Part shown: piece after piece, positions 13,977-34,209 of the stretch
How the letters are laid out: each line of letters opens with the position of its first letter
How positions within the stretch are numbered: position 1 is the first letter of the stretch
Assembly: GCA_945901795.1 (NCBI GenBank)
Contig: CAMDLP010000028.1
Coordinates: forward strand, 1 to 38,723
Source of the DNA: Akkermansia muciniphila
Lineage (GTDB): Bacteria > Verrucomicrobiota > Verrucomicrobiia > Verrucomicrobiales > Akkermansiaceae
DNA: 38,723 nucleotides
Direction of reading: 5' to 3'
The notes under the pieces: model-generated
What the model was told of the DNA's origin: nothing
Seen by the model: the letters and a program-made list of their open reading frames with translations, nothing else
Database searches by the model: none
Translations under genes and position numbers: made by a program

Positions 13977-14249
13977 ATGAGCACCGCACTCGGCATGATC
14001 GAAACCAAAGGCTACGTCGGCAGCGTCGAAGCCACCGACGCAATGGCCAAAGCCGCCAACGTCCAAATTGTTAGTCAAATTCAAATCGGCGGGGCGTTCC
14101 TCACCGTTCTCGTCAAAGGCGACGTCGGCAGCGTGAAAGCCGCTGTTGATGCCGGAGCCGAAGCCGCCGGCCGTGTTGGCGAGCTTGTTGCCGCCCACGT
14201 CATCGCCCGTCCGCATCCCGAGCTCCTCAGCCAGTTCGGCATCGCCTGA
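13977..14249 (+). CDS. BMC-H shell protein 1
   Basis: This 90-residue single Pfam-BMC-domain protein forms a hexameric shell tile. It has the typical start ALGMIETKGYVGSVEATDAMAKAANV and the closing strand HVIARPHPELLSQ. The loop that lines the central pore reads QIGGA (residues 36-40). There is no N- or C-terminal extension. It lies 33 bases after pduL. The small-residue pore differs from those of the other two BMC-H proteins here, so this tile may pass a different metabolite. Confidence 0.93.
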   Translation: MSTALGMIETKGYVGSVEATDAMAKAANVQIVSQIQIGGAFLTVLVKGDVGSVKAAVDAGAEAAGRVGELVAAHVIARPHPELLSQFGIA

Positions 14250-14271
14250 GATCCTTCTGACCATTAACCAT

Positions 14272-14292
14272 CAACTCTCAACTCTCAACTTC
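14272..14292. repeat. 7-bp tandem array CAACTCT before BMC-H 2
   Basis: Three consecutive heptamers, CAACTCT, CAACTCT and CAACTTC, lie 8 bases before the start codon at 14301. They are preceded by a related CCATTAACCAT. The array fills the spacer between the first two BMC-H genes and is low in GC compared with the flanking genes. It belongs to the set of heptamer arrays seen next to start codons in this window. Confidence 0.7.
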
Positions 14293-14300
14293 CTACTACC

Positions 14301-14579
14301 ATGGCTAAACAAGCAATCGGCATCATCGAAACCAAGGGATTCATCTCCCTAGTTGAAGCCTCAGACGCGGCTCTCAAGTCCGCCGACATCCGAATGACCG
14401 GCTGGGAAAAAATCGGTTCCGGTCTCGTCACCGGATTCTTCACCGGCGACGTCGCCGCGGTCAAAGCCGGCCTCGACGCCGCCGCTGCCGCCGCATCCAA
14501 GCTCGGCACTGTCAGTTCCGTGCAAGTCATCCCGCGTCCGCACGACGATTTGTCCAAGCTCGGCGGTTGGATCGGCTAA
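14301..14579 (+). CDS. BMC-H shell protein 2
   Basis: This is a 92-residue BMC-H hexamer subunit (AIGIIETKGFISLVEASDAALKSAD, closing VQVIPRPHDDLSKLG). The pore loop KIGSG (residues 37-41) is the common form seen in many BMC-H proteins. An Ala run at residues 60-65 belongs to the second helix. It lies between BMC-H 1 and the acetate kinase gene and is probably the major shell tile, but expression cannot be judged from sequence. Confidence 0.93.
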   Translation: MAKQAIGIIETKGFISLVEASDAALKSADIRMTGWEKIGSGLVTGFFTGDVAAVKAGLDAAAAAASKLGTVSSVQVIPRPHDDLSKLGGWIG

Positions 14580-14623
14580 TTTTTCCAGCGTTCCGGATTC
14601 CCAATATTTCAGCTTCTATCAAG

Positions 14624-15799
14624 ATGCTCGTCCTCGTCGCCAACCTCGGCTCGACCTCGTTCAAGTACCGTCTCTTCCGCATGGACGGGAACGGTGGCGA
14701 GGTGATTGCCAAGGGCGGCTACGAACGGGTGACCGACTACGCCGCGGTGATTGATGACGCCTTGACCGCGCTTCAGCGCGACGGCGTCATTGCCAGCCCG
14801 GAAGAAATCGAAGCGGTAGGTTTCAAGACCGTTCTTGGCAAGGATCTCAGCGGCTGCGTGATGGCCGATCAAAAGGTCATCGCCGCGCTCGAAGGATTCA
14901 CCGCCGTCGCACCGGCTCACAATCCGCCGTATGCGGCAGGCATCGCGCAGTTCGAGAAATCACTGCCGAACGCCCGCCTTGTCGCACTTTTTGAAACGGC
15001 CTTCTATCAGTGGACAAGCCCGGCGTCCTACTCTTACGCCATTCCCCGTGCATGGCGTGATATCGGCATCCGCCGTTATGGATTCCACGGGGCGAGTCAC
15101 AAGTTCATCGCCGAGCGTTCTGCCGAGCTCTGCGGTCGCGAGGACGTGGCCCGAATCGCCCGCCGCCTCTATCTGGACGGCCCGCAGCCGGTTGTTGGAA
15201 ATCCGCTCCGCGTCGTTTCCTGCCATCTTGGCGGATCGAGTTCCGTGACCGGCATCCGCAACGGTGTCGCCATCGGTTCCAGCATGGGCTTCTCGCCGCA
15301 AAGCGGGCTTCCTCAAAACAACCGCGTCGGCGACCTTGATTCCGGTGCCATTCCCTACGCCATGCGGACTCTTGGCATCTCGCTGGATGAGGCCGAGCGC
15401 CAACTGACCAAGGAATCCGGCCTGCTAGGCATCTCCGGTGTTTCCAATGACATTCGCGACGTGAACGCCGCGTCCCAGGAAGGAAACCCCGACGCACAAC
15501 TCGCTGTCGACTCGCTCGTTCATTCGATCCGCCACTGGACCGGCGCATTCCAATTCGAGCTCGGCGGCCTTGACGCCCTCGTGTTCACCGCCGGTATCGG
15601 CGAAAATGGCGCCGCCACCCGTGCCGCGGTCTGCAAGGACCTCGAAGCATTCGGGATCCATCTTGATCCTGCGAAAAACGAGGCCTGCCGCGCCACCGAG
15701 TCCGTTATCAGCACCGACGACTCACCCGTGAAAATCATCGTCATCCCGGCGAACGAGGAGCTCGTTCTTGCCCGCGAGGTTTATCGCAAGCTTTCCTGA
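14624..15799 (+). CDS. ackA: Acetate (propionate/lactate) kinase homologue
   Basis: This 391-residue ASKHA-fold kinase converts acyl-phosphate plus ADP to the acid plus ATP. Family motifs are NLGSTSFKYRLF at the N-terminus, GFHGASHKFI, HLGGSSSVTGIRNG, SSMGFSPQSGLPQNNRVGDLD and GIGENGAATRAAVC. Within PV-type BMC loci it is expected to use the acyl-phosphate made by PduL (lactyl-phosphate for fucose or rhamnose). The ATG at 14624 (MLVLVANLGS) is chosen because a start at 14567 would overlap the BMC-H 2 gene. No targeting peptide is obvious, so it may act outside the shell. Several motifs depart from textbook acetate kinase (LGST for AGSS, HLGGSSS for HLGNGAS), in line with a divergent, compartment-linked subfamily. 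Confidence 0.9.
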   Translation: MLVLVANLGSTSFKYRLFRMDGNGGEVIAKGGYERVTDYAAVIDDALTALQRDGVIASPEEIEAVGFKTVLGKDLSGCVMADQKVIAALEGFTAVAPAHNPPYAAGIAQFEKSLPNARLVALFETAFYQWTSPASYSYAIPRAWRDIGIRRYGFHGASHKFIAERSAELCGREDVARIARRLYLDGPQPVVGNPLRVVSCHLGGSSSVTGIRNGVAIGSSMGFSPQSGLPQNNRVGDLDSGAIPYAMRTLGISLDEAERQLTKESGLLGISGVSNDIRDVNAASQEGNPDAQLAVDSLVHSIRHWTGAFQFELGGLDALVFTAGIGENGAATRAAVCKDLEAFGIHLDPAKNEACRATESVISTDDSPVKIIVIPANEELVLAREVYRKLS

Positions 15800-24057: not shown

Positions 24058-26973
24058 ATGACCCCCTACCACGCGAAATACTACGCCCACGAACTCAGCC
24101 GCACCGGCGGCGAGGGCGTGGATCGCTTGGGACGCGCGCTTTTCGACGCCACCGTCGAACTCAATCCCCACCAGATTGAAGCCGCCATGTTTGCGCTGCG
24201 GTCGCCGCTCTCCAAAGGCGTCTTGCTCGCCGATGAAGTCGGCCTCGGCAAAACTATCGAAGCAGGACTCGTCCTCTGCCAGTCCTGGGCAGAAAACCGC
24301 CGCAAGCTGCTCGTCATCACCCCCGCCTCCCTGCGGAAACAGTGGGCCTTGGAGCTTGAGGAGAAATTCAACCTCCCATCCGTCATCCTTGATGCCCACT
24401 CCTTCCGCGGGTTTCAGCGGGACGGCCACGCCTCGCCCTTCGAGCAAAACCAAATCGTTATCTGCTCGTATCACTACGCCGCCCGCATGGCCGGGGTGAT
24501 CCAGCCGATTCCGTGGGACCTCGTCGTGATGGATGAGGCCCACAAGCTCCGGAACTGCTACCGCGAGAGCAACCGCCTCGGTCAGGCGATCCGGAGCGCC
24601 ACCGAAGGCCGCAAGAAAATCCTCCTCACCGCCACCCCGCTCCAAAACTCGCTCGTCGAACTCTACGGCCTGTCCACCCTGATCGATGATCGCCTCTTCG
24701 GCGACCTCCCATCCTTCCGCACCCAGTTCGCAAACGCCGGCGGCGACTTGGCTGCCCTGCGAGAGCGGCTTGCCACCTTCTGCCACCGCATGCTCCGCAG
24801 CGAGGTCCTTGAGTATGTCAAATACACCCAGCGCCGCCTGCTCGCCCGCCCGTTCACCCCCAGCGAGCAGGAGCACAAACTTTACGAAACCGTCTCCAGC
24901 TACCTCCAGCGCGAGGACAGCTACGCCATGCCGCAGCGGCAGCGCCATCTCATCGTCCTGCTCGTTCGTAAGGTGCTCTCATCCTCGCCCCGCGCCCTTG
25001 CCGGGACCTTGGAAATGATGCGCGACCGCCTTCTCCGCATTCAGGAGGACGCAAGAAACAACTCCAACCTCTTCGACCAACTCATCGCCGGCGACGACCT
25101 CGACGCCGAGTTGCTAGACGAACTCCTCGAAGACGCGGAAGACGCCGAAGTCACAGCGGACAATGCCGAAGTGACGGCGGACGATGCCGAAGCCCCGGAG
25201 GAAAATCCCGCCGCCGCAGAGCCGATCGACCCGGTGAAGCTCAAAAAGGAAATCGCCGAGCTCGAAGATTACATCCGCTGGGCGCGCAGCATCGGCGTGG
25301 ACACCAAGAGCCATGCCTTGCTGAAAGCCCTCGAAATCGGCTTCGCGCAGATGGTGGCGATGAGCCCGCCCGCCCCGCAGAAAGCCGTCATTTTCACCGA
25401 GTCCCGCCGCACCCAGACCTTTCTCAAGGAATTCCTCGAAGCAAACGGCCACCACGGAAAAGTCGTCATTTTCAACGGCTCCAACAACGATCCCGATTCC
25501 AAGAAAATCCACGAATCCTGGGCCGCGCGCAACCGCGAGACCGGCCGCATGACCGGTTCCCGCGCCGTCGATTCCCGCACCGCCATCATCGACGCCTTCC
25601 GCGACTCCTCCGAAATCCTCATCGCCACCGAAGCCGCCGCGGAAGGCATCAACCTCCAATTCTGCGCTCTCGTCGTGAACTTCGACCTGCCGTGGAACCC
25701 GCAGCGCATCGAGCAACGTATCGGCCGCTGCCATCGCTACGGCCAGGAGCACGACGTGGTGGTCATCAATTTCCTCAACCAGCGCAACGAAGCCGACCTT
25801 CGCGTCCACGAACTCCTCGAAACCAAGTTCCACCTGTTCTCCACGCTCTTCGACACCTCCGACGACATTCTCGGCCTGGTCGATGGCACCATCGACTTCG
25901 AGCGCCGCGTGCTTGAGATCTATCAACAGTGCCGCTCCTCCGAGGAAATCAAAGCCGCCTTCGAACAGCTCCGGGAGGAACTCGACCAACAAATCCAGTC
26001 CCGCATGAGCGAGACCCGGCAGATGCTGCTCGATCACTTCGACGAAGACGTCCACGAGCGCCTCAAGGTCCGGTTGGAAGGCGCGCGGTTGCAACTCGAC
26101 CGCATCGGCCGGCTTTTCTGGGCGCTCAGCCGTTTCGAACTGCAAGATTCCGCCGCTTTCGATGACGACGCACTCGCCTTCGAGCTCCGCGAGTCGCCGA
26201 TCACCGCCGCGCGCCCGGGCCACTACCGGCTCATCCAAAAAGGCCGCGCCAACATCCCCGGCGAGTTTCTCTATCGCCTGAATCATCCGCTCGGCGAGCA
26301 CACCGTCGCACAGGGAAAAGGCCACCCGTGCCCGCTGGCGGAGGTCGTCTTCGACATCACCCGCCATCCCACGAAAGTCAGCGTCGTCGAGCAGCTCAAG
26401 GGGAAATCCGGCTGGCTCACCCTCCAGCAGCTCCGCATCGACTCGTTGGAGCGCGAGGAATACCTGCTCTTCTCCGCCTTCGATGACGAGGGCCACGACC
26501 TCGATCAGGAAACCTGCGAAAAACTCTTCAGCGTAGCTGGGACTTCCAGTCCCAGCTCATCTTTTCCCGAGTCTCCACAACGCCTCGCCGCCGAGGCGAA
26601 ACGCCACGTCGCCGCCACGCTCAACCGTTCCCTCGAAACCAACCACCGCCATTTCCAGCTGGCCCGCGACCAGCTCGACCAATGGGCCGAGGACATGGAG
26701 CTCGCCTCACAGAAACAGCTCGAAGATCTGAAACGCCAGATCCGCGATCTCCAGCGCCGCTCCCGGCAAGCCCCCACGCTCCAGGAGGAAAAGGCGATGC
26801 AGGACCAGATCCTCAAGCTCGAACAAGCCAAGCGCCGCCAGCGCCAGCGCATCTTTGAGATCGAAGATGAGATCGAGGACAAGCGCAAAACCCTCGTCGC
26901 CGCGCTGGAATCCCGCCTCCAGCAGAAAACCCAAACCAGCAACCTCTTCACCATCCGGTGGGCAGTGATTTGA
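24058..26973 (+). CDS. SNF2/HepA-type DEAD-like helicase of a DNA-modification/defence locus
   Basis: This is a 971-residue superfamily 2 ATPase. Motif I is ADEVGLGKT (residues 58-66) and motif II is VVMDEAHKLRN (near 157). TATPLQNS is motif III. Helicase lobe 2 ends with TEAAAEGINLQ and PWNPQRIEQRIGRCHRYGQ (motifs V-VI, about 523-565). The C-terminal third is charged and coiled-coil-like (SQKQLEDLKRQIRDLQRRSRQ, residues 880-950). Similar SNF2 helicases occur beside large adenine methyltransferases in type III-like and DISARM-like loci, and here a methyltransferase fragment follows 43 bases later. Oddities are an acidic 7-residue repeat at 363-383 and an in-frame REP-like hairpin at about residues 826-834. 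The frame is intact, but its partner is broken. Confidence 0.85.
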   Translation: MTPYHAKYYAHELSRTGGEGVDRLGRALFDATVELNPHQIEAAMFALRSPLSKGVLLADEVGLGKTIEAGLVLCQSWAENRRKLLVITPASLRKQWALELEEKFNLPSVILDAHSFRGFQRDGHASPFEQNQIVICSYHYAARMAGVIQPIPWDLVVMDEAHKLRNCYRESNRLGQAIRSATEGRKKILLTATPLQNSLVELYGLSTLIDDRLFGDLPSFRTQFANAGGDLAALRERLATFCHRMLRSEVLEYVKYTQRRLLARPFTPSEQEHKLYETVSSYLQREDSYAMPQRQRHLIVLLVRKVLSSSPRALAGTLEMMRDRLLRIQEDARNNSNLFDQLIAGDDLDAELLDELLEDAEDAEVTADNAEVTADDAEAPEENPAAAEPIDPVKLKKEIAELEDYIRWARSIGVDTKSHALLKALEIGFAQMVAMSPPAPQKAVIFTESRRTQTFLKEFLEANGHHGKVVIFNGSNNDPDSKKIHESWAARNRETGRMTGSRAVDSRTAIIDAFRDSSEILIATEAAAEGINLQFCALVVNFDLPWNPQRIEQRIGRCHRYGQEHDVVVINFLNQRNEADLRVHELLETKFHLFSTLFDTSDDILGLVDGTIDFERRVLEIYQQCRSSEEIKAAFEQLREELDQQIQSRMSETRQMLLDHFDEDVHERLKVRLEGARLQLDRIGRLFWALSRFELQDSAAFDDDALAFELRESPITAARPGHYRLIQKGRANIPGEFLYRLNHPLGEHTVAQGKGHPCPLAEVVFDITRHPTKVSVVEQLKGKSGWLTLQQLRIDSLEREEYLLFSAFDDEGHDLDQETCEKLFSVAGTSSPSSSFPESPQRLAAEAKRHVAATLNRSLETNHRHFQLARDQLDQWAEDMELASQKQLEDLKRQIRDLQRRSRQAPTLQEEKAMQDQILKLEQAKRRQRQRIFEIEDEIEDKRKTLVAALESRLQQKTQTSNLFTIRWAVI
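25144..25206 (+). repeat. In-frame 21-bp tandem repeat encoding AEVTADN/AEVTADD/AEAPEEN
   Basis: Three 21-base units within the helicase gene encode a 7-residue acidic repeat (residues 363-383). The third unit is diverged. It lies in the linker between the two helicase lobes, where extra acidic sequence is tolerated. It probably arose by slippage and could vary in copy number between strains. Confidence 0.7.
26535..26557 (+). repeat. REP-like palindromic element B, inside the helicase frame
   Basis: A perfect 10-bp inverted repeat, AGCTGGGACT/AGTCCCAGCT, has a TCC loop. The sequence reads GTAG at its left foot (26533-26536), like the GTAG/GGAG tetranucleotide that marks REP elements mobilised by RAYT transposases. 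It is read through as VAGTSSPSS in a linker region of the helicase without breaking the frame. Confidence 0.6.
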
Positions 26974-26984
26974 GGAAATTCATC

Positions 26985-27005
26985 ATTCAAAATTCAAAAT
27001 TCAAA
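26985..27005. repeat. 7-bp tandem array ATTCAAA before the methyltransferase fragment
   Basis: Three exact ATTCAAA units are followed by a partial fourth, 11 bases before the ATG at 27017. The array fills the short spacer after the helicase stop. It is one of the heptamer arrays found beside start codons in this window. Confidence 0.75.
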
Positions 27006-27016
27006 ATTTCTTCCCC

Positions 27017-27680
27017 ATGTCCGCCTTCTCCGATCTCCGCAAAAAACTCGCCGAACTCTTCCAGCTCGATGCCGCCGCCGAACTCGACTTCGGCATCTAT
27101 CGAATCCTCAACGCCCGCCGCGTGGAAATCGAAGGCTTCCTCGACAGCCTGGAACCGCAGGTGGAAGCCATCCTCGACGAGGCCCTGCAAACCGGAACCG
27201 GCGAGCTGATCGCGGAACTCGAAAAAGTGGAGGCCGGTCTCCGTGCCGGTGGTTTCGATGACGCAATGATTTCCACCGCGCCCAAGGTGAGGGAACTCCG
27301 CGACAAAATCGCCAGCGCCGGTGGCGATCCCACCGCCATCACCCACGAGATCTTCTCCCTGCTCACCACCTTCTTCGGCCGCTATTACAAGGACGGCGAT
27401 TTCCTCTCGTTGCGCCGCTACAAGAAAGACACCTACGCCATTCCCTACGAAGGCGAGGAGGTGAAACTCCATTGGGCGAACGCCGATCAATACTATATCA
27501 AGTCCGCCGAAACCTACCGCGACTATAGTTTCAAACTCGGCCCTGCGCCCAAGGACGAAAAACCCGACACCCGGCCGACCGTCACCTTCAAACTCACCGA
27601 AGCCGACGCCGAAAAGGACAACAACAAGGCCGTCGCCGGCCAGGAACGCCGCTTCGTCTATCAAGGAGTCGTCGAAGAAA
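27017..27680 (+). pseudogene. Truncated site-specific DNA methyltransferase (type III Mod-like), N-terminal fragment
   Basis: About 220 residues match the N-terminal part of large (roughly 1000-residue) site-specific adenine methyltransferases: ELDFGIYRILNARRVEIEGFLDSLEP, LTTFFGRYYKDGDFLSLRRYKKDTYAIPYEGEEVKLHWANADQYYIKSAE, and a following FKLTEADAEKDNNKAVAGQERRFVYQ. Recognisable sequence ends near 27676. The catalytic DPPY and SAM-binding motifs are absent. The frame stays open to 28048, but only by reading a REP pair and then the antisense of nuoN. The partner restriction subunit is also missing. The fragment therefore cannot methylate DNA. An assembly join at the repeats is an alternative to a true deletion. 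Confidence 0.75.
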
Positions 27681-27704
27681 GTGTTCCGACTGTCTCAGTC
27701 GGAA
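27681..27704 (+). repeat. REP-like palindromic element C (family of element A)
   Basis: TTCCGACTG/CAGTCGGAA forms a 9-bp stem with a TCT loop (27684-27704), preceded by GTGT. It matches element A at 11135 in stem, loop and flank. It begins exactly where methyltransferase similarity stops. Confidence 0.75.
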
Positions 27705-27719
27705 AAAGCCTGGGAAATG

Positions 27720-27740
27720 CGGCTGAGACAGCCGAAACAC
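27720..27740 (-). repeat. REP-like palindromic element D, inverted relative to C
   Basis: CGGCTG/CAGCCG has a 3-base loop. On the minus strand it reads GTGTTTCGGCTGTCTCAGCC, the same unit as elements A and C. With C it forms a head-to-head pair 15 bases apart, like the paired REPs (BIMEs) of enterobacteria. It lies 5 bases after the nuoN stop. Confidence 0.72.
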
Positions 27741-27745
27741 ATGGG

Positions 27746-29215
27746 TTATTTCAACAGTGCCCAGATCGGCTGCGGCCAGAAGCCGAGGACGAGCGTGGCG
27801 ATGGTGAGCACGGCGATGCAGAGCTTGCTGATGCAGGGCAGGACGATGGCCTCGGCATCGGCGGCGTCGCTCCACCACATGGCGCGGATGACCTTGAAGT
27901 AGTAGTAAAATCCGGCGGCCGCGGCGACGAAGGCGATGCCGACGCCGAACCAGAGCTTGGCCTCGACGGCGAGCGAGAAGACGAGGAACTTGCCGATGAA
28001 TCCGGCGGTGAGCGGCACGCCGGCGAGGGCGGCGAGCAATACGGTTAGGGCGAGCGCGAGCTGCGGGTTGGTTTTTCCGAGGCCGTTGAAATCGCTGATC
28101 ATTTCGCCGTCGCGCTGGATGCGGACTTGGGCGAGCACGAAGAAGACGCCGAGCGTCATGAGCAGATAGGTGGCGAGGTAGAAGGAGACGACCTTGACGG
28201 AACCTTCGGAAACGGCGGTTTCCGGCTTCCAGGCGGCGAGTGCGAGGAGGAGGAATCCGGCGTGCGCGATGGAGGAGTATGCGAGCAGGCGTTTGAAGTT
28301 GGTCTGCGGGATGGCGGCGAGATTTCCGAACAGCAGGGTGGCGCAGGCGAGGATGAGCAGCAGCGTGAGGACCGGGCCGCGGGTGAGCTCGCTGGCGAGG
28401 AAGGGCTCGAGGAAACGGATGGTGAGGATGAAGCCGGCGGCTTTGGAGCCGACGGAGAGGAAGGCGGTGACCGGTGTGGGCGCGCCTTGATAGACGTCGG
28501 GGATCCAGACCTGCATCGGCACGGCGCCGATCTTGAAACCGAGGCCGACCATGACGAGGGCGATGCCGAAAAGCAGCGGGGTGGAGTGGGTGATGTGGGT
28601 GAGGCGCTCGGGCATTTCCGCGAGGCTCATGGTGCCGGTGGAACCGTAAACCCAGGCGATGCCGTAAACGAGGAAGCCGGTGCTGAGCGCGCCGAGGATG
28701 AGGTATTTCACGCCGGCTTCGAGCGAGCCGACGTTGCGGCGCATGTAGGCGACGAGGATGTAGAAGGTGACGGTGACGAGTTCGAGGGCGACGAAGGCTC
28801 CAGCCAGATCCTTGGCGGAGGCGAGCCACATCATGCCGGCGCAAGCGAAGATGGGGAGGCAGTAGAATTCGCCGGTGCCGGCTTCGGAGTCGGGCGTTTC
28901 AGTGAAGCGGGAGAGGATTTTCCGGTAATCGACGGCGAGCAACAGGACGAGGATGGTGGTGACGAGGGCGAAGATTTTATAGAATTTCGCGAGGCCGTCG
29001 AAGTTGTAGAAGTTCCACAACGGCCACTTGGCCCAGGCTGCATCGGGCTTGGCATCCGGTCCGATCGCGAGGCAGGTGAGGCCGAGGATGACCACCAGGC
29101 CGACGGCGGCGGAGATGCCGACCCAGGCTTTGCTTTTGCACGAGCAAAAGGTCTCGGCCATCAGCAGGACGATGCCGAGGGTGACGGTGAGGGCTTCTAA
29201 GTAGTAGGCGGGCAT
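27746..29215 (-). CDS. nuoN: NADH-quinone oxidoreductase subunit N
   Basis: This 489-residue antiporter-like membrane subunit of complex I takes part in proton pumping. About 14 helices are expected. Typical stretches are LVTVTFYILVAYMRRNVGSLEAGVKYLILGALSTGFLVYGIAWVYG, with the conserved glutamate and lysine, and KIGAVPMQVWIPDVYQGAPTPVTAFLSVGSKAAGF. The C-terminus is complete (FWPQPIWALLK). It is the last gene of the nuoG-N run, and its stop lies next to the REP pair and the truncated methyltransferase gene. Confidence 0.95.
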   Translation of the reverse strand: MPAYYLEALTVTLGIVLLMAETFCSCKSKAWVGISAAVGLVVILGLTCLAIGPDAKPDAAWAKWPLWNFYNFDGLAKFYKIFALVTTILVLLLAVDYRKILSRFTETPDSEAGTGEFYCLPIFACAGMMWLASAKDLAGAFVALELVTVTFYILVAYMRRNVGSLEAGVKYLILGALSTGFLVYGIAWVYGSTGTMSLAEMPERLTHITHSTPLLFGIALVMVGLGFKIGAVPMQVWIPDVYQGAPTPVTAFLSVGSKAAGFILTIRFLEPFLASELTRGPVLTLLLILACATLLFGNLAAIPQTNFKRLLAYSSIAHAGFLLLALAAWKPETAVSEGSVKVVSFYLATYLLMTLGVFFVLAQVRIQRDGEMISDFNGLGKTNPQLALALTVLLAALAGVPLTAGFIGKFLVFSLAVEAKLWFGVGIAFVAAAAGFYYYFKVIRAMWWSDAADAEAIVLPCISKLCIAVLTIATLVLGFWPQPIWALLK

Positions 29216-29221
29216 GATGGA

Positions 29222-29249
29222 AAATTCTAAATTCTAAATGCTAAATTCG
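29222..29249. repeat. 7-bp tandem array AAATTCT upstream of nuoN
   Basis: Four heptamers in exact phase (AAATTCT, AAATTCT, AAATGCT, AAATTCG) begin 6 bases upstream of the nuoN start. On the coding strand the unit reads AGAATTT. Confidence 0.8.
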
Positions 29250-29294
29250 AAACGGAAGAGGGAGAAAAGAGGCGCAAAGTTGGATTCTTTGTTT

Positions 29295-29322
29295 AGAATT
29301 TAATGCTTAAGATTTAATGCTT
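29295..29322. repeat. 7-bp tandem array AGAATTT/AATGCTT at the nuoM stop
   Basis: Four heptamers (AGAATTT, AATGCTT, AAGATTT, AATGCTT) end at the first base of the nuoM stop codon. Together with the array at 29222 they occupy much of the 106-base nuoM-nuoN spacer. Confidence 0.7.
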
Positions 29323-30755
29323 TATTTCAGCAGATTGAGCAAAAGGTTCGGATAGAGACCGACGGCGAAGAGCGCGAGAACCAGCAGCGTCGCCGGGATG
29401 CGGTCTGCCAGAGTGAGGTCTGCGGCGGACGCGGTGGATTTCACGGCCGGGCCCTGGAAGATGTTCCGATAGGCGCGGAGCATGTAAACGGCGGAGATGA
29501 CTACGCCCCAGATGGAGAGGATGCACGCGATCTGCACCGGGCCGAGGCCGGTGGTGCCGTTGTAGCTCTTGAAGGCGGCGAGGAAGACGAGGATTTCGCC
29601 GGAGAAATTGGCGAGGCCGGGAAGTCCGATAGACGCCATGGCGGCGATGCCGAACAGGAAGGCAAGGCCGGGCGCGGATTTGGCGAGGCCGCCGAGGTCC
29701 TGGAGGTCGAGCGAGCCGGTGTTGCGCTCGATGCGGTCGGCGAGGCCGAAGAGCAGGGCGATGGAAATGCCGTGGGCGAACATCAGGATGATGGCGGCGG
29801 AGCGGGCGAGCGGGTTCTCCGGGAAGGAGATGAGCGCGGCGATGGCGAGGAAGATGTAGCCCATGTGCATCACCGAGGAGTTGCCGAGCATCAGGTCGAG
29901 GCGCTTCTGGGAAATCGTGACCCAGCCGACCCACAGGATGTTGCCGAGCAGCAGGACGAGCAGGGGAGTGAGCCAGAATTGCAGGCCCTCGGGGACGAGC
30001 GGGATGGCGAGGCGCAGCAGGCCGTAGAGGCCGAATTTTTTCAGGACGCCGGCGTGCAGCATGGCGACCGGAGCGGGCGCGCTAGCATAAGCCGGAGCGG
30101 CCCACGAGTGGAACGGGAAGAGCGAAACGAGCGTGCCGAAGCCGACGATGAGCAGCGCGGCGATGCCTTTCTGCGAGGCGGGATCAATGGACCCGGCGGC
30201 GGCGACCATTTTCACCATGTCGTAGGTGCCGGTAAGGTTGGCGAGCCAGACGAGACCGGCTAGCAGGACGATGGAGCCGAGGCCGAGGTAGATGGTGATT
30301 TTCCAAGCGGCCTCGCGGCGGTCGCCACGGCCGAGGATGCCGATCATGAGGAAGGTCGGGATGAGCGCGAGTTCGTGGAAGGCGAAGAAGAAGAATAGGT
30401 CGGTCGCGGCGAAGGCTCCAAGCGCGCCGCCGGAGATGAGGAGCGATGAGCCGTAGTAGAGTTTTTCCCTGCCTTCTGGAGCCTTGCCGGAGAGCACGGC
30501 GGCGAGGGTGACGATCACGGAAAGCAGCACCATGATGACGCTCATGCCGTCGATGAAGCCGAAGGCGAGGTTGAGCGCGGGCTTTTCGAGGACGGGCACG
30601 GAGAACGACCAGCAGGTGCATTTCCAAGTGAACGCGGCGTAGATCCCGAGTGCGAGATTGAGTGCGGAGGCGGCGATGGCGGTGAGCCGGGCGGGTGCGC
30701 CTAGCAGGATCGCGATGAAGGCGACGATGGGTAAGAAAATGATGAAGGCGAGCAT
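29322..30755 (-). CDS. nuoM: NADH-quinone oxidoreductase subunit M
   Basis: This 477-residue antiporter-like complex I subunit carries the conserved HELALIPTFLMIGILGRG segment with the essential glutamate. It also has FPFHSWAAPAYASAPAPVAMLHAGVLKKFGLYGLLRL and the discontinuous-helix region near SSVMHMGYIFL. The length is close to the family norm. It lies between nuoL and nuoN, as in the standard operon. Confidence 0.95.
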   Translation of the reverse strand: MLAFIIFLPIVAFIAILLGAPARLTAIAASALNLALGIYAAFTWKCTCWSFSVPVLEKPALNLAFGFIDGMSVIMVLLSVIVTLAAVLSGKAPEGREKLYYGSSLLISGGALGAFAATDLFFFFAFHELALIPTFLMIGILGRGDRREAAWKITIYLGLGSIVLLAGLVWLANLTGTYDMVKMVAAAGSIDPASQKGIAALLIVGFGTLVSLFPFHSWAAPAYASAPAPVAMLHAGVLKKFGLYGLLRLAIPLVPEGLQFWLTPLLVLLLGNILWVGWVTISQKRLDLMLGNSSVMHMGYIFLAIAALISFPENPLARSAAIILMFAHGISIALLFGLADRIERNTGSLDLQDLGGLAKSAPGLAFLFGIAAMASIGLPGLANFSGEILVFLAAFKSYNGTTGLGPVQIACILSIWGVVISAVYMLRAYRNIFQGPAVKSTASAADLTLADRIPATLLVLALFAVGLYPNLLLNLLK

Positions 30756-30770
30756 GGGATGAAGTTTTGA

Positions 30771-30798
30771 GTGATCAGTGATCAGTGATTAGTGATCA
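30771..30798. repeat. 7-bp tandem array GTGATCA upstream of nuoM
   Basis: Four heptamers in exact phase (GTGATCA, GTGATCA, GTGATTA, GTGATCA) lie 16 bases upstream of the nuoM start. The same unit recurs before nuoL and nuoJ. Confidence 0.82.
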
Positions 30799-30818
30799 GA
30801 GGGAGGATGCTCTCTCGG

Positions 30819-32639
30819 TCAGAAGGCGGTGAAATAGACGACAAGAATGACGCCGAGGCCGAAGGCGAAGGCGTAGCCCTGCAGGCTGCCGGACTGGACT
30901 TTGCGGAAGAGGTTGCCGGAGGATTCTGCGGCACGGCTGAGACCGCCGACGAGCAGGCCGTTGATGATGAACTCGTCGAAGAAGGCGATGATTGCGGCGA
31001 AGGCGTCTTGGAAATAACGGACGAGGAAATTGTCGTAGATGCCGTCGATGTAGAAGCGGTTTTGCAGGAGCGGGATCGAGATGGGGTCCTTTTCCTTGCC
31101 GGCGTAGAGGGCGAATCCGGCGATCACACCGGTGAGAAGCGCGCCGATGGAGATGTAGGTGACGAAGCCGAGGTGGATGAGGTGCTCCGGCTGATGATAG
31201 GCCGGAGCGAACTTGCTGGCGACGAACGGGAAACCGGCGATCACGCCGAGGATGGCGAGGAGCACGAGCGGACCGGACATCAGCGGGCCGACTTCATGGG
31301 CGTGCGAGGCGTTTTCGGAACGGTTTTTTCCGAGGAAGGCGACGACGTAAAGGCGGGTCATGTAAAACGGAGTGAGCACCGCGACGGCGGCGGCGATCCA
31401 GAAGAGGATGGGTTCCTTCTGATGGGCGGCCTCGAGGATTTGCTCCTTGGAGAAGAATCCAGAGGTGAACGGCACTGCGATCAGCGCGGCGAATCCGATG
31501 AGGAAGGTGAATCCGGTGATCGGCATTTTCTTGAGTAGGCCGCCCATTTTCCAGATGTCCTGTTCGTGGTGGCAGGCGAAAATGACCGCGCCGGAGCCGA
31601 GGAAGAGCAGGGCCTTGAACCAGGCATGGGTGAAAAGGTGGAACATGCCCGACTCGCCGGAAACGAGGCCGACGGCCATGACCATGTAGCCGAGCTGGGA
31701 GAGGGTGGAGTAGGCGAGCACGCGCTTGATGTCGTCTTGCTGGGTGGCCATCAGCGCGGCGACGAGGGCGGTGATGCCGCCGGTCCAGGCGATGACGGCG
31801 CTGGCTTGGAGACCTTCGAAGACTTCGAAACCGAGCGTGAATTGCAGCCGGAACAGCATGTAAACCCCGGCGGCGACCATGGTGGCGGCGTGGATCAGCG
31901 CGGAAACGGGCGTCGGGCCTTCCATGGCGTCCGGCAGCCAGACGTGGAGCGGAAGCTGGGCGGATTTTCCAACAGCCCCGCAGAAGATGCAGAATACGGC
32001 GGCGGAGAGCACGCCGCCGAAGATCGCGGGATTGGCGGCTTGGAACGCTTCGAGACCGCCCTTCATTTGGTCGAAAGCAAGATGGCCGGTGATGCCCCAC
32101 AGCATGAGGATGCCGACCATGAAGCCGAAGTCGCCGATGCGGTTGCAGAGGAATGCCTTCTTCGCGGCGTCCGCGGCGGAGTCCTTCTGATACCAGTGGC
32201 CGATGAGCAGATAGGAACTGAGTCCGACCAACTCCCAGAAGATGAAGGTCATGATGAAATTGTCCGCCAGGACGATGCCGGTCATCGAGAACATGAAAAG
32301 TGATAGGCCGGTGAAGTAGCGCGCTTTGGCATCGTCGTCCTTCATGTAGGCGAGCGAGAAAACGTGGACCAACAAGCCGACGCCGGTGACGACGATCATC
32401 ATGCCGGTGGAAAGCTGGTCGAGTTTGATGCCGATATTGATGGAGAAATCGCCGATGGTCGCCCAAGCAAAGTCAGATGACTCGTTTCTGCCCAACAGCA
32501 TCAAGGCGATCACGAAGGTCGCCAGCGCGGAGGCCACCGAGACGATCGGCGTGAGCCCGGGTTTTTTCAGGACGAGTTGGTTCACCGCAGCGACGGCGAG
32601 CGGGAGGAAGAGGAGGATCCAGGCGAGATTCATTGGCAT
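30819..32639 (-). CDS. nuoL: NADH-quinone oxidoreductase subunit L
   Basis: This is a 606-residue antiporter-like complex I subunit with the long C-terminal lateral helix region. Motifs are FWELVGLSSYLLIGHWYQKDSAADAAKKAFLCNRIGDFGFMVGI, AQLPLHVWLPDAMEGPTPVSALIHAATMVAAGVYML, and AYSTLSQLGYMVMAVGL, which are the conserved proton-channel residues of NuoL. The N-terminus begins MPMNLAWILLFLPL. Two ATG codons compete as start, and the upstream one is listed. Confidence 0.96.
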   Translation of the reverse strand: MPMNLAWILLFLPLAVAAVNQLVLKKPGLTPIVSVASALATFVIALMLLGRNESSDFAWATIGDFSINIGIKLDQLSTGMMIVVTGVGLLVHVFSLAYMKDDDAKARYFTGLSLFMFSMTGIVLADNFIMTFIFWELVGLSSYLLIGHWYQKDSAADAAKKAFLCNRIGDFGFMVGILMLWGITGHLAFDQMKGGLEAFQAANPAIFGGVLSAAVFCIFCGAVGKSAQLPLHVWLPDAMEGPTPVSALIHAATMVAAGVYMLFRLQFTLGFEVFEGLQASAVIAWTGGITALVAALMATQQDDIKRVLAYSTLSQLGYMVMAVGLVSGESGMFHLFTHAWFKALLFLGSGAVIFACHHEQDIWKMGGLLKKMPITGFTFLIGFAALIAVPFTSGFFSKEQILEAAHQKEPILFWIAAAVAVLTPFYMTRLYVVAFLGKNRSENASHAHEVGPLMSGPLVLLAILGVIAGFPFVASKFAPAYHQPEHLIHLGFVTYISIGALLTGVIAGFALYAGKEKDPISIPLLQNRFYIDGIYDNFLVRYFQDAFAAIIAFFDEFIINGLLVGGLSRAAESSGNLFRKVQSGSLQGYAFAFGLGVILVVYFTAF

Positions 32640-32648
32640 GAGTGGAAA

Positions 32649-32669
32649 GTGATCAGTGAGCAGTGATCA
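32649..32669. repeat. 7-bp tandem array GTGATCA upstream of nuoL
   Basis: Three heptamers (GTGATCA, GTGAGCA, GTGATCA) start 9 bases upstream of the nuoL ATG and end just before the nuoK stop region. The unit is the same as before nuoM and nuoJ. Confidence 0.78.
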
Positions 32670-32677
32670 GAGAAAAA

Positions 32678-32998
32678 TCAGCCCTTCAGGCTGGTCAGCT
32701 CGTCGGTGTGGATGGTTTGGCGGGCGCGGTAGAGGGCGACGATGATCGCGAGGCCGACGGCGACTTCTGCGGCGGCGACGGTGATGACGAAGAAGACGAG
32801 TATCTGGCCGTTGTAGTCGGGCAGTCCGTTAGCGGAGACATGGAAGCGGGAAAACGCGACCAGCGTGAGGTTCGCCGCGCTGAGCATCAGCTCGAGGCAC
32901 ATGAAGACGATGATGATGTTCCGGCGCAGCACCACGCCCGCGAGGCCGATGGCGAAGAGAAGTCCGGAGACGAGGAGGTAGTCGTTTAGTGAAGCCAT
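32678..32998 (-). CDS. nuoK: NADH-quinone oxidoreductase subunit K
   Basis: This is a 106-residue, three-helix complex I membrane subunit ([45 protein letters not shown]). It contains the conserved membrane glutamates in CLELM and [11 protein letters not shown], and the length is normal. Confidence 0.95.
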
Positions 32999-33019
32999 AA
33001 ATCTTAAGTTCTAAATTCT
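32999..33019. repeat. 7-bp tandem array AAATTCT abutting nuoK
   Basis: Three heptamers (AAATCTT, AAGTTCT, AAATTCT) begin at the base adjoining the nuoK start codon and fill most of the 33-base nuoJ-nuoK spacer. The unit matches the array before nuoN. Confidence 0.7.
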
Positions 33020-33031
33020 AAACGAAGAGGG

Positions 33032-33595
33032 TCAGCCGGCCTGGCGCTTTGAGAGGACGACGACGCCGACGGTGGCGACGAGGAGGAGGACGCCGAGGAT
33101 CTGGAGCGGAAGATTGTAGTCGGTGAAAAGCGTGTGGCCGATGAGGTGGACGTCGGGGAGTTTTCCTTGGGTGAGCGTGGTGGCGATCTTGCTGGTGGAG
33201 GGAAATCCGCTGGCGGCTGCGGCGAGGGTTTCCTTGTTGAGGTCCGGTGCGATCACGTTTGGCGTGCGGGAAAGGATGCCGATGAGTTGCACCATGAAAG
33301 CAGCGACCAGCGCGATGCCGGCGGCGATGGGGAGCAGGGGCTTGGCGGCTTTTTCCTCATCCTTTAGATCGAGCAACATGATGATGAAGAGGAACAACAC
33401 CATCACCGCGCCGGTATAGACGAGGATCTGGATGACGCCGACGAAGAAGGCGCTGAGGCCGATGAACAATCCGGCGAGGCCGACGAAGCAGGTGACGACT
33501 GATAGTGCGCTGGAAACCGGATTGCGGAAGGCGATCACGGAGATCCCGCCGATGAGCATCACGGTGGAGAAGAGCCAGAAGAGGTAGGAGGGCAT
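33032..33595 (-). CDS. nuoJ: NADH-quinone oxidoreductase subunit J
   Basis: This is a 187-residue complex I membrane subunit with five helices. Typical segments are NPVSSALSVVTCFVGLAGLFIGLSAFFVGVIQILVYTGAVMVLFLFIIMLLDL and a C-terminal GVLLLVATVGVVVLSKR. The family's VQxLVYxGAxxxLFLF signature is present as IQILVYTGAVMVLFLF. Confidence 0.94.
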   Translation of the reverse strand: MPSYLFWLFSTVMLIGGISVIAFRNPVSSALSVVTCFVGLAGLFIGLSAFFVGVIQILVYTGAVMVLFLFIIMLLDLKDEEKAAKPLLPIAAGIALVAAFMVQLIGILSRTPNVIAPDLNKETLAAAASGFPSTSKIATTLTQGKLPDVHLIGHTLFTDYNLPLQILGVLLLVATVGVVVLSKRQAG

Positions 33596-33610
33596 GGGAA
33601 GAAGTGGAAA

Positions 33611-33631
33611 GTGATCAGTTAGCAGTGATCA
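33611..33631. repeat. 7-bp tandem array GTGATCA upstream of nuoJ
   Basis: Three heptamers (GTGATCA, GTTAGCA, GTGATCA) lie 16 bases upstream of the nuoJ start, in the 47-base spacer after nuoI. The flanking GTGGAAA is shared with the nuoL spacer, so the whole spacer sequence looks duplicated between the two places. Confidence 0.78.
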
Positions 33632-33642
33632 GTGGGAGAAGG

Positions 33643-34209
33643 TTACTTGAGCTCATTCCACTTGTTCACGAGGCCGACGCGGGTGCCGCCGATTTCGTAG
33701 AGGCGCTTTTTGTCGTGGACCATGTCGGAGCGCTTGAGGCCGGTGATGAGGTAGTCCTTGCGCAGATAGATCGCCTGCTCGGGGCAGACTTCCTCGCACA
33801 TGCCGCAGTAGATGCAGCGGATCATGTCGATTTCGAATTCGAGCGGGCGCTTTTCCACCTTGGCCCATGGATCGTCGGAAGGAATTTCGCTGGGGACGAT
33901 CTTGATGGCCTTGGGCGGGCAGATGAATTCGCAGAGCTGGCAGGAAACGCAGCGTTCGCGGCCTTGCTCGTCGGTGACGAGGGCGGGGGCGCCGCGGTAG
34001 TATTCGGGAAGATGCTCGTCCCAGCGTTGTTCGGGGAACTGCATGGTCACGCCGAGGCCGGAGGAGGCGAGTTCTTCGGCTCCCACGGATTTCCCGCGCA
34101 GCGTTTTCACGGCGTGGGTCAGGGTGAGGAAAAATCCCTTGATGAGGGCTCCGAAGTAGATTTTCTCACCGAAATTGAGCTTCGGGCGTTGGAGTTTGAC
34201 GACGGCCAT
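33643..34209 (-). CDS. nuoI: NADH-quinone oxidoreductase subunit I (2x[4Fe-4S] ferredoxin type)
   Basis: This 188-residue subunit of the complex I peripheral arm passes electrons toward the quinone site. Two complete CxxCxxCxxxCP cluster motifs are visible: CVSCQLCEFICP (C87, C90, C93, C97) and CIYCGMCEEVCP (C132, C135, C138, C142). The N-terminal 40 residues include a helix that rests on the membrane arm. The position between nuoH and nuoJ is standard. Confidence 0.96.
   Translation of the reverse strand: MAVVKLQRPKLNFGEKIYFGALIKGFFLTLTHAVKTLRGKSVGAEELASSGLGVTMQFPEQRWDEHLPEYYRGAPALVTDEQGRERCVSCQLCEFICPPKAIKIVPSEIPSDDPWAKVEKRPLEFEIDMIRCIYCGMCEEVCPEQAIYLRKDYLITGLKRSDMVHDKKRLYEIGGTRVGLVNKWNELK

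Follow-up and report, generated by a model that had tools for sequence, protein, structure and literature searches.

Introduction

The short tandemly repeated repetitive (STRR) sequences of cyanobacteria are heptameric tandem repeats that lie between genes. The best-documented heptamer repeats are the TAACTGA direct repeats found in marine Beggiatoaceae and in some Cyanobacteria and Bacteroidetes (MacGregor 2015, PMC4679880). Other heptamers, GGGAATC and GGGGA(T/C)T, are described from Xanthomonas and Nostoc in PMC4692102, which also cites a Calothrix STRR case, and the heptanucleotide elements of Geobacter metallireducens have been proposed to be regulatory (PMC2700814). In these accounts the prevalence of heptanucleotides among long bacterial repeats is so far explained by a guess about polymerase slippage (PMC4679880, PMC4692102). 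In this work we analyse 7-nt-phased arrays that occupy the spacers of the nuo operon in a 38,723-nt stretch of DNA (the window; contig CAMDLP010000028.1) from a genome labelled Akkermansia muciniphila, hereafter G000. Its 120 contigs and its closest named NuoM relatives suggest a metagenome-assembled genome of the Akkermansiaceae. This work shows that 7-nt-phased intergenic repeat modules are common among freshwater Akkermansiaceae of one genus and among its near kin, and that their period, place and orientation are kept while their sequence changes.

The verrucomicrobial arrays appear to be a new variant on the published start-codon heptamer repeats. An earlier note on the window had likened them to the cyanobacterial STRRs, and a likeness to published bacterial heptamer repeats stands, with TAACTGA of Beggiatoaceae as the nearest published case. 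Both form short intergenic heptamer sets, mostly in sense orientation a few nucleotides upstream of starts; most repeat-bearing Beggiatoaceae leaders, as described, have no Shine–Dalgarno (SD) sequence, and some reverse copies lie near stop codons (PMC4679880). Here too we find intergenic tandem heptamers in sense upstream of starts, the latter feature being weaker genome-wide (P = 0.056 without the window), and unit identity differs, the window units being of the CTGATCA and TTTAGAA types. In the Beggiatoaceae account one heptamer dominates, single-base variants are rarely repeated and some ribosomal-protein operons bear repeats (PMC4679880), whereas here there are 35 start-side units, families replace one another at the same spacer, and rplB spacers are nearly array-free. 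Shared last heptads, inverted partners within a spacer and enrichment in nuo and atp appear to go beyond what is described for TAACTGA (PMC4679880). The Xanthomonas and Nostoc heptamers resemble our arrays in being intergenic, variable between close strains in length and sequence, and in part arranged as inverted pairs, but they are described as G-rich and quadruplex-forming (PMC4692102), while start-side units here average 13% G. The G. metallireducens elements are likewise dispersed families of four or five tandem heptanucleotides; unlike ours, they are reported with a fixed consensus per family, and GGACCGG elements also lie within genes (PMC2700814). A literature search found no report of such heptamer repeats in Verrucomicrobia, most subscription papers being outside its reach.

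Heptad arrays in the nuo operon of the window

The minus strand of the window carries the 3' part of the nuo operon, from nuoI to nuoN, as identified by NCBIfam profile search (Table 1). NuoN, NuoM, NuoL and NuoK match their models above curated cut-offs; for NuoG, NuoH, NuoI and NuoJ the best hits stay below them. The earlier note had reported exact 7-base arrays in most spacers of this operon. When the best lag-7 score of each spacer was compared with 2000 first-order Markov simulations of that spacer, period-7 repeats were found in five of the six spacers tested, with P < 0.0005 for each of the L–M and M–N spacers, P = 0.004 for K–L, a moderate P = 0.02 for J–K and a borderline P = 0.058 for I–J; the H–I spacer has no array (P = 0.42). 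Tandem Repeats Finder called four of the six claimed arrays: AAATTCT upstream of nuoN (4.4 copies, 87% matches) and AGTGATC at nuoM (4.3 copies, 91%), nuoL (3.3 copies, 87%) and nuoJ (3.6 copies, 77%). The nuoK-spacer and nuoM-stop arrays were not called; both are readable in the sequence, and the nuoM-stop array aligns with nine relatives. The 7-base phase is therefore upheld and the exactness is not, as matches are 77–91% and exact 21-mers are nearly absent from the genome: three exact GTGATCA units occur once genome-wide, on another contig, and three exact AAATTCT units not at all. Hence the arrays of the window are genuine and mostly imperfect. No Rfam model matched in the window at the gathering threshold. 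The flanking sequence said to be common to the nuoL and nuoJ spacers is indeed there (29 of 30 bp), and copying within the window is visible solely in this pair. Two units do alternate along the operon, as claimed, within the window; in relatives, at least six word families, one of them a 9-mer, occupy the same spacers.

Orthologous nuo spacers keep the period and change the word

Searching named genomes with NuoM yielded 80 loci, whose labels are Akkermansiaceae, Verrucomicrobia or genera of that group; we chose to split these loci by score rank into a near set (L042–L092, other genera included) and a far set (L093–L121). Starts were taken from homology and the nearest plausible start codon, spacers of at least 400 nt or overlapping by at least 20 nt were excluded, and spacers shorter than 18 nt (26/150 near, 50/116 far) were omitted from array counts. 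Lag-7 arrays were present in 32 of 124 near-set spacers, against 0.5 expected, and in 3 of 66 far-set spacers; one or more arrays are present at 24 of the 48 loci where a spacer could be measured. For the other periods in the near set, lag 9 gave 6/124 (0.3 expected), lag 8 gave one, periods 4–6 and 10–13 gave none and the harmonic 14 gave 25, so that the 7-nt unit is over-represented relative to other unit lengths.

The words themselves are replaced. A permissive word test of the M–N spacer at 48 loci assigned TTTAGAA-type words to 12 and the 9-mer GACCTATAA type to 13 (two also with CTGATCA); CTGATCA was found in four more, a TAAC type in three, CTGAAAA in one and other heptads in two, nine spacers had no repeat words and four were shorter than 30 nt. 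Three families occur in four near sisters: the window, L042, L096 and L043 carry TTTAGAA, GAATCTG, GAATCTG and GACCTATAA, in M–N spacers of 106, 45, 45 and 37 nt, respectively. Over the first 60 nt of nuoN, L042, L096 and L043 are identical to the window at 57, 56 and 58 positions; over the last 60 nt of nuoM the figures are 52, 52 and 23, the last being low because in L043 a new stop codon is provided by the repeat. In the L070 nuoJ–nuoK and L043 nuoM–nuoN spacers the stop of the upstream gene lies within, or comes from, a nine-base array, and the NuoM C-terminus is altered in L043. Some arrays look older, as CTGATCA words recur in the K–L spacers of the window, L052, L057 and L061. A TAACTGA-like run is present in one relative, in the L058 M–N spacer. 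Copy number, through which the earlier note supposed that translation might be tuned, does differ by whole units between the I–J spacers of the close species L065 and L069, and spacer lengths of close species differ by multiples of 7 in 11 of 82 unequal comparisons, which are not independent, about the chance level of 1 in 7. The nuoI–nuoJ spacers of L085, L091 and L095, of 211–221 nt, seem to hold a small similar open reading frame (ORF).

Arrays tend to end close to start codons

In nuo spacers of at least 80 nt, all 80 loci taken together, the distance from array end to start codon is within 20 nt for 16 of 24 arrays, where 6.0 would be expected, and none of 20,000 random placements reached this figure. 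For the genus we read 28 of the 30 loci returned for each of two words, two overlapping loci being skipped each time (80 word matches were listed for CTGAAAA and a similar number for ACTGATC, with overlapping matches counted separately). CTGAAAA arrays faced a start in 19 loci, a stop in seven, a contig edge in one and lay inside a called gene in one, and ACTGATC arrays faced a start in 22, a stop in five and an edge in one. When the count is restricted to arrays with a sense end no more than 25 nt from a gene boundary, those facing a start outnumber those facing a stop by 23 to six (P = 0.002). Arrays therefore tend to end within about 25 nt of starts, in sense orientation, in nuo spacers and, for the two units, genus-wide. 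In the genome samples described below, 11 of 16 arrays are start-side (7.2 expected, P = 0.013). The enrichment near start codons supposed by the earlier note thus stands in part: codirectional spacers are enriched and the two chosen units precede starts across the genus, and the excess for all arrays without the window is weak (7/12 against 4.4 expected, P = 0.056).

Distribution in the genome, the genus and the phylum

Our sample of G000 covers 839 kb of 3.28 Mb (40 stretches and the window). Period hits in the genome samples were counted at a score of at least 10, and gene starts came from an in-house codon-score caller, which misses some genes, such as the ORF that follows the array at 26976. 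In G000, 11 codirectional spacers out of 281 had period-7 hits, where 0.6 would be expected; three of these spacers belong to the nuo operon. Hits were found in 0 of 62 convergent and in 1 of 87 divergent spacers, and other periods from 4 to 13 gave 0 to 3 hits in codirectional spacers. The nuo operon is thus an array hotspot and not typical of this genome. Taken over the codirectional spacers of the sample as a whole, the summed autocorrelation at lag 7 is hardly elevated (0.271, with 0.258–0.280 for lags 4–11), and therefore the signal is confined to a few spacers. Called genes gave seven period-7 hits in 705, versus 0–2 for periods 4, 5, 8, 10, 11 and 13. Units elsewhere in G000 are different (AATCAAA, AATCTCA, AAAATCG, CAACTCT, ATCAACC and others). 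In the samples of relatives that the database labels as the same genus (G-numbers), arrays were found in 0/139 (G003), 1/82 (G008), 2/47 (G017) and 1/67 (G012) codirectional spacers. By pattern search, CTGAAAA repeats are present in 25 of 73 genomes of the genus, with three for the reversed control, and ACTGATC repeats in 19 of 73, with none for the control. Across 145 genomes drawn over the phylum, in which G000 is the sole member of the genus, the CTGAAAA word was found in two, one of them G000, and is therefore concentrated in the genus; three units of TAACTGA were found in one. The genome of the window also has a longer dispersed intergenic repeat that is not built of heptads (L007:9876-10356, L017:10153-11340, L030:16720-17084), with matches of 158–208 bp at 82–90% identity.

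The arrays are unevenly distributed among operons. For genomes of the same genus we scored the spacers that lie up to about 1.5 kb from a named gene, and at an array score of at least 9 arrays were found in 11 of 21 spacers around nuoM (16 genomes), 14 of 79 around atpA and 1 of 82 around rplB (19 genomes each). Relative to rplB, P = 2e-8 for nuoM and P = 2e-4 for atpA, with spacers treated as independent, which those of related genomes are not; one array is common to two atp loci (L254 and L269). Spacers around rplB are shorter, with a median of 30 nt against 44 and 48, and the contrast remains per base, with one array in 3.1 kb for rplB, 14 in 4.6 kb for atpA and 11 in 1.7 kb for nuoM. In other families the counts were 1/13 (nuoM), 1/45 (atpA) and 0/25 (rplB). 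An operon for bacterial microcompartment (BMC) shell proteins in the window also carries an array. A suggestion from this comparison is that nuo, atp and BMC operons may have in common that they all build large assemblies of uneven stoichiometry.

Shared module ends and inverted partners

Long simple sequence repeats are, as a class, simple repeats without conserved flanks. The ACTGATC modules have borders in common. Three loci were excluded from the comparison of module ends, one for each word because of similar flanks and a further one for ACTGATC because it lies where a contig ends. Among the 26 ACTGATC sites with dissimilar flanks, 19 continue with NNNCACT, a divergent last heptad that is in phase. 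Exact CGGCACT follows in 10 and TTCCACT in four, TCTTCC precedes seven, and TCTTCC and CGGCACT occur together at six, in five genomes; beyond these ends information falls to background level. In genome G076, ACTCGGCACT follows at all nine sites read, two of which share flanks, and CGGCACT itself is repeated at some; these copies therefore appear to descend from one another. CTGAAAA sites share little, GCAAACT following in 6 of 27. Dispersed copies with shared borders, as in repetitive extragenic palindromes (REP) and miniature inverted-repeat transposable elements (MITE), are thus present for ACTGATC modules, and the window's own units lie outside this result. The shared last heptad and TCTTCC support the view that modules have been copied between unrelated sites, which supports, as far as copying goes, the proposal of the earlier note that the arrays could be targets of a homogenising mechanism. 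In two cases two heptamer families lie side by side, ACATCGA then CTGAAAA in one array region of G001 (L355), and GGATCTT then ACTGATC in a region of G057 (L326).

A minority of spacers, a third of the long ones, have an inverted second array after the upstream stop codon. Inverted complementarity exceeds z = 3 in 17 of the 47 nuo spacers of 60–160 nt and is at or below this value in the other 30. Ten spacers have two detected arrays, and in seven of them the second array agrees with the first, read as reverse complement, at six or more of seven positions (null 5%); the unit of these partners is not conserved between families. In the window the nuoM-stop array is complementary in part to the array on the nuoN side (z about 2.6), and the I–J, J–K, K–L and L–M spacers have short stems only. 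Strong hairpins are predicted in single spacers (L060 I–J, L070 I–J, L080 M–N). A conserved M–N hairpin was rejected: the consensus fold of ten spacers of one family reaches only -0.89 kcal/mol with a covariation term of -0.07, and 3 of 10 pairs show a double change.

Translation context

In G000 an SD core is present in 7.8% of 586 ATG leaders at -18..-3, compared with 8.2% at -48..-33 and 7.7–8.2% further upstream. Four relatives give 7.6–10.4%, compared with 8.4–9.6% at -48..-33, and therefore any excess is marginal; at the nuo starts of L042–L092 the core is found in 1 of 150, compared with 10 of 150 at -48..-33. There is no SD signal in G000 or at the nuo starts of its relatives. A pattern search for the anti-SD sequence gave no hit in G000 and was unspecific in seven relatives; Akkermansia appears in PMC10783764 among SD-scarce organisms that keep CCUCC. 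Leaders with arrays are G-poor (9% G at -35..-1 versus 18% without) and predicted to fold weakly (-3.4 kcal/mol, n = 55, versus -8.4, n = 669), a difference between array and array-free leaders that is not significant within nuo and within atp/rplB loci.

Features of the window

Table 1. Heptad arrays and genes of the window
Feature	Position	Strand	Evidence
Start-side heptad array of the TTTAGAA family (sense), ends 6 nt short of nuoN start	29222..29252	-	Tandem Repeats Finder, lag-7 test
Central nuoM-nuoN spacer, CTCTTCC adjoining start-side array	29253..29290	-	Sequence, alignment with relatives
Stop-proximal array, sense AGCATTAAATCTTAAGCATTAAATTCTAAAC, period 7/14, directly after nuoM stop	29291..29321	-	Sequence, relatives
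Start-side heptad array of the CTGATCA family (sense), 14 nt short of nuoM start	30770..30799	-	Tandem Repeats Finder, lag-7 test
Start-proximal CTGATCA-family array upstream of nuoL	32648..32670	-	Tandem Repeats Finder, lag-7 test
Degenerate TTTAGAA-family array immediately upstream of nuoK, CTCTTCG before it	32999..33023	-	Sequence, P = 0.02
Degenerate CTGATCA-family array upstream of nuoJ	33610..33634	-	Tandem Repeats Finder, P = 0.058
nuoN	27746..29215	-	NCBIfam
nuoM	29322..30755	-	NCBIfam
nuoL	30819..32639	-	NCBIfam
nuoK	32678..32998	-	NCBIfam
nuoJ	33032..33595	-	NCBIfam, below curated cut-off
nuoI, leader without array	33643..34209	-	NCBIfam, below curated cut-off
TCAACTC array between two BMC shell genes, ends 10 nt short of the second	14271..14290	+	Tandem Repeats Finder
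ATTCAAA array, ending 8 nt before ATG at 27017, after DrmD-like helicase gene	26976..27008	+	Tandem Repeats Finder

Two arrays of the window lie outside the nuo operon. The ATTCAAA array directly follows a 971-aa ORF for an SNF2-type helicase (24058-26973, plus strand), whose best matches are DISARM DrmD models below curated cut-offs, and it precedes by 8 nt a 343-aa ORF (27017-28048, plus strand) with no Pfam match, which overlaps the 3' end of nuoN on the opposite strand. The TCAACTC array lies between two BMC shell genes that, together with an acetate kinase gene, occupy 13977-15799 on the plus strand.

Discussion

We tentatively read the arrays as a dispersed, slippage-prone repeat module used as a G-poor leader in SD-free translation, a reading that we hold to be quite possible and stop short of calling probable. 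Modules would spread by copying between spacers, through recombination, gene conversion or a mobile mechanism, would gain or lose units by slippage, and would persist at sites where the resulting leader, poor in G and weakly folded, would let 30S subunits land without SD pairing. Their retention would be chiefly in operons for large complexes, nuo and atp, and the exact heptamer would be of little weight, composition and position counting more. The fast-replaced arrays of many spellings may thus be a generic ribosome landing strip.

Several observations weigh against this reading. Shuffling the letters of the arrays leaves predicted accessibility unchanged (0.64 versus 0.64), with a small difference in minimum free energy (-3.4 versus -4.1 kcal/mol, P = 0.0017), and array-free leaders in nuo and atp/rplB are roughly as open; therefore composition, and not 7-base order, gives the openness. 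Openness through array order is not supported, since composition suffices, and of the proposal that the arrays keep leaders unstructured it is the G-poor, weakly folded leader that survives, the 7-base order adding little. On these predictions the arrays seem to be one source of open leaders and not a prerequisite for them. Stop-side inverted arrays would fold back onto the leader. Outside nuo and atp arrays are uncommon, as the G000 and G003 counts show, the start-side excess is weak genome-wide without the window, and in G017 arrays are present in 3 of 12 convergent spacers. The rplB spacers are nearly array-free though the genes of that region face the same translation problem, and they are also shorter. 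Finally, the shared ACTGATC ends lie in heptad phase, CGGCACT included, and the CTGAAAA sites are less uniform, CTAGCAAACT being found at 4 of 27, two of which are probably orthologous. The heptad phase of the ends, the weakness of the CTGAAAA ends and the shortness of the rplB spacers weaken the leader reading and strengthen that of neutral slippage.

Under neutral slippage, the replicative polymerase would slip most readily by 7 nt and spacers would tolerate the resulting heptanucleotide repeats. We consider this somewhat unlikely as a full account, and still a serious one, because heptanucleotides are reported to be the commonest long simple repeats in most of the genomes surveyed (Mrazek et al. 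2007, as reported in PMC4679880 and PMC4692102), period 7 prevails here whatever the unit, the L065 and L069 I–J spacers differ by whole units, and some convergent spacers have arrays. What it leaves unexplained is the position of the arrays at nuo starts beyond random placement (16/24 versus 6.0), the excess of sense-to-start arrays (23 versus 6), and the divergent last heptad and TCTTCC common to unrelated sites; it also sits badly with spacer-length differences that show no excess of multiples of 7 (11/82).

These shared ends could also come from a REP- or MITE-like mobile element, in which the inverted array pair would represent terminal inverted repeats inserted between stop and start, and single arrays would be remnants. 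The inverted second arrays (7 of 10, null 5%), the inverted complementarity above z = 3 in 17 of 47 long nuo spacers and the wholesale spacer differences between near sisters would fit such an element. However, units vary between families, whereas transposon termini should be conserved, and arrays favour starts (23 versus 6), which makes this explanation unlikely in our opinion.

The same complementarity could instead form an intercistronic RNA hairpin that couples translation, a ribosome at the upstream stop melting the stop-side arm and freeing the start-side arm. Its maintenance across spacers with different unit families, and the strong hairpins predicted in L060, L070 and L080, would be expected under this model; the weak consensus fold and covariation term of the ten M–N spacers, the long spacers that do not exceed z = 3 (30 of 47) and the four window spacers with short stems only would not, and we regard such coupling as improbable. 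The strict 7-base phase might also mark an operator on which a DNA- or RNA-binding protein advances in 7-nt steps. The omega protein, a ribbon-helix-helix protein, binds WATCACW heptads, which the unit GATCACT resembles, and one of the two units followed is strongly favoured in some genomes (CTGAAAA in G001 and G060, ACTGATC in G038 and G076), though both are present in others. Against an operator, the sites lie between cistrons near start codons, and at least six word families at one spacer across species would hardly be tolerable for a sequence-specific protein; we think it very improbable. An all-frame stop barrier, in which three copies of a stop-bearing heptamer would place stops in three frames and insulate cistrons, is almost certainly not the explanation, since the 19 of 35 distinct start-side units, over all loci sampled, with a sense-strand stop are matched by letter-permuted units (17.2 on average, P = 0.29) and by the antisense strand (also 19 of 35).

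To return to leaders, a bolder version of our reading, which we offer as a long shot, is that in bacteria without SD pairing the signal lies in the 7-nt phase as such. An RNA-binding factor, ribosome-associated or other, would read leaders in 7-nt steps with loose sequence demand, a run of any G-poor heptamer ahead of a start codon would then suffice, and copying would resupply these runs to the spacers of operons for large energy complexes, setting subunit ratios. If true, this would also explain the heptamers before Beggiatoaceae start codons. How bacteria without SD pairing mark their starts is an open question that these arrays touch. Between close relatives, orthologous spacers of an essential operon differ in their letters and agree in period and place, which makes sequence separable from period and position, and the leader hypothesis is directly testable by swapping the spacers of sister species.

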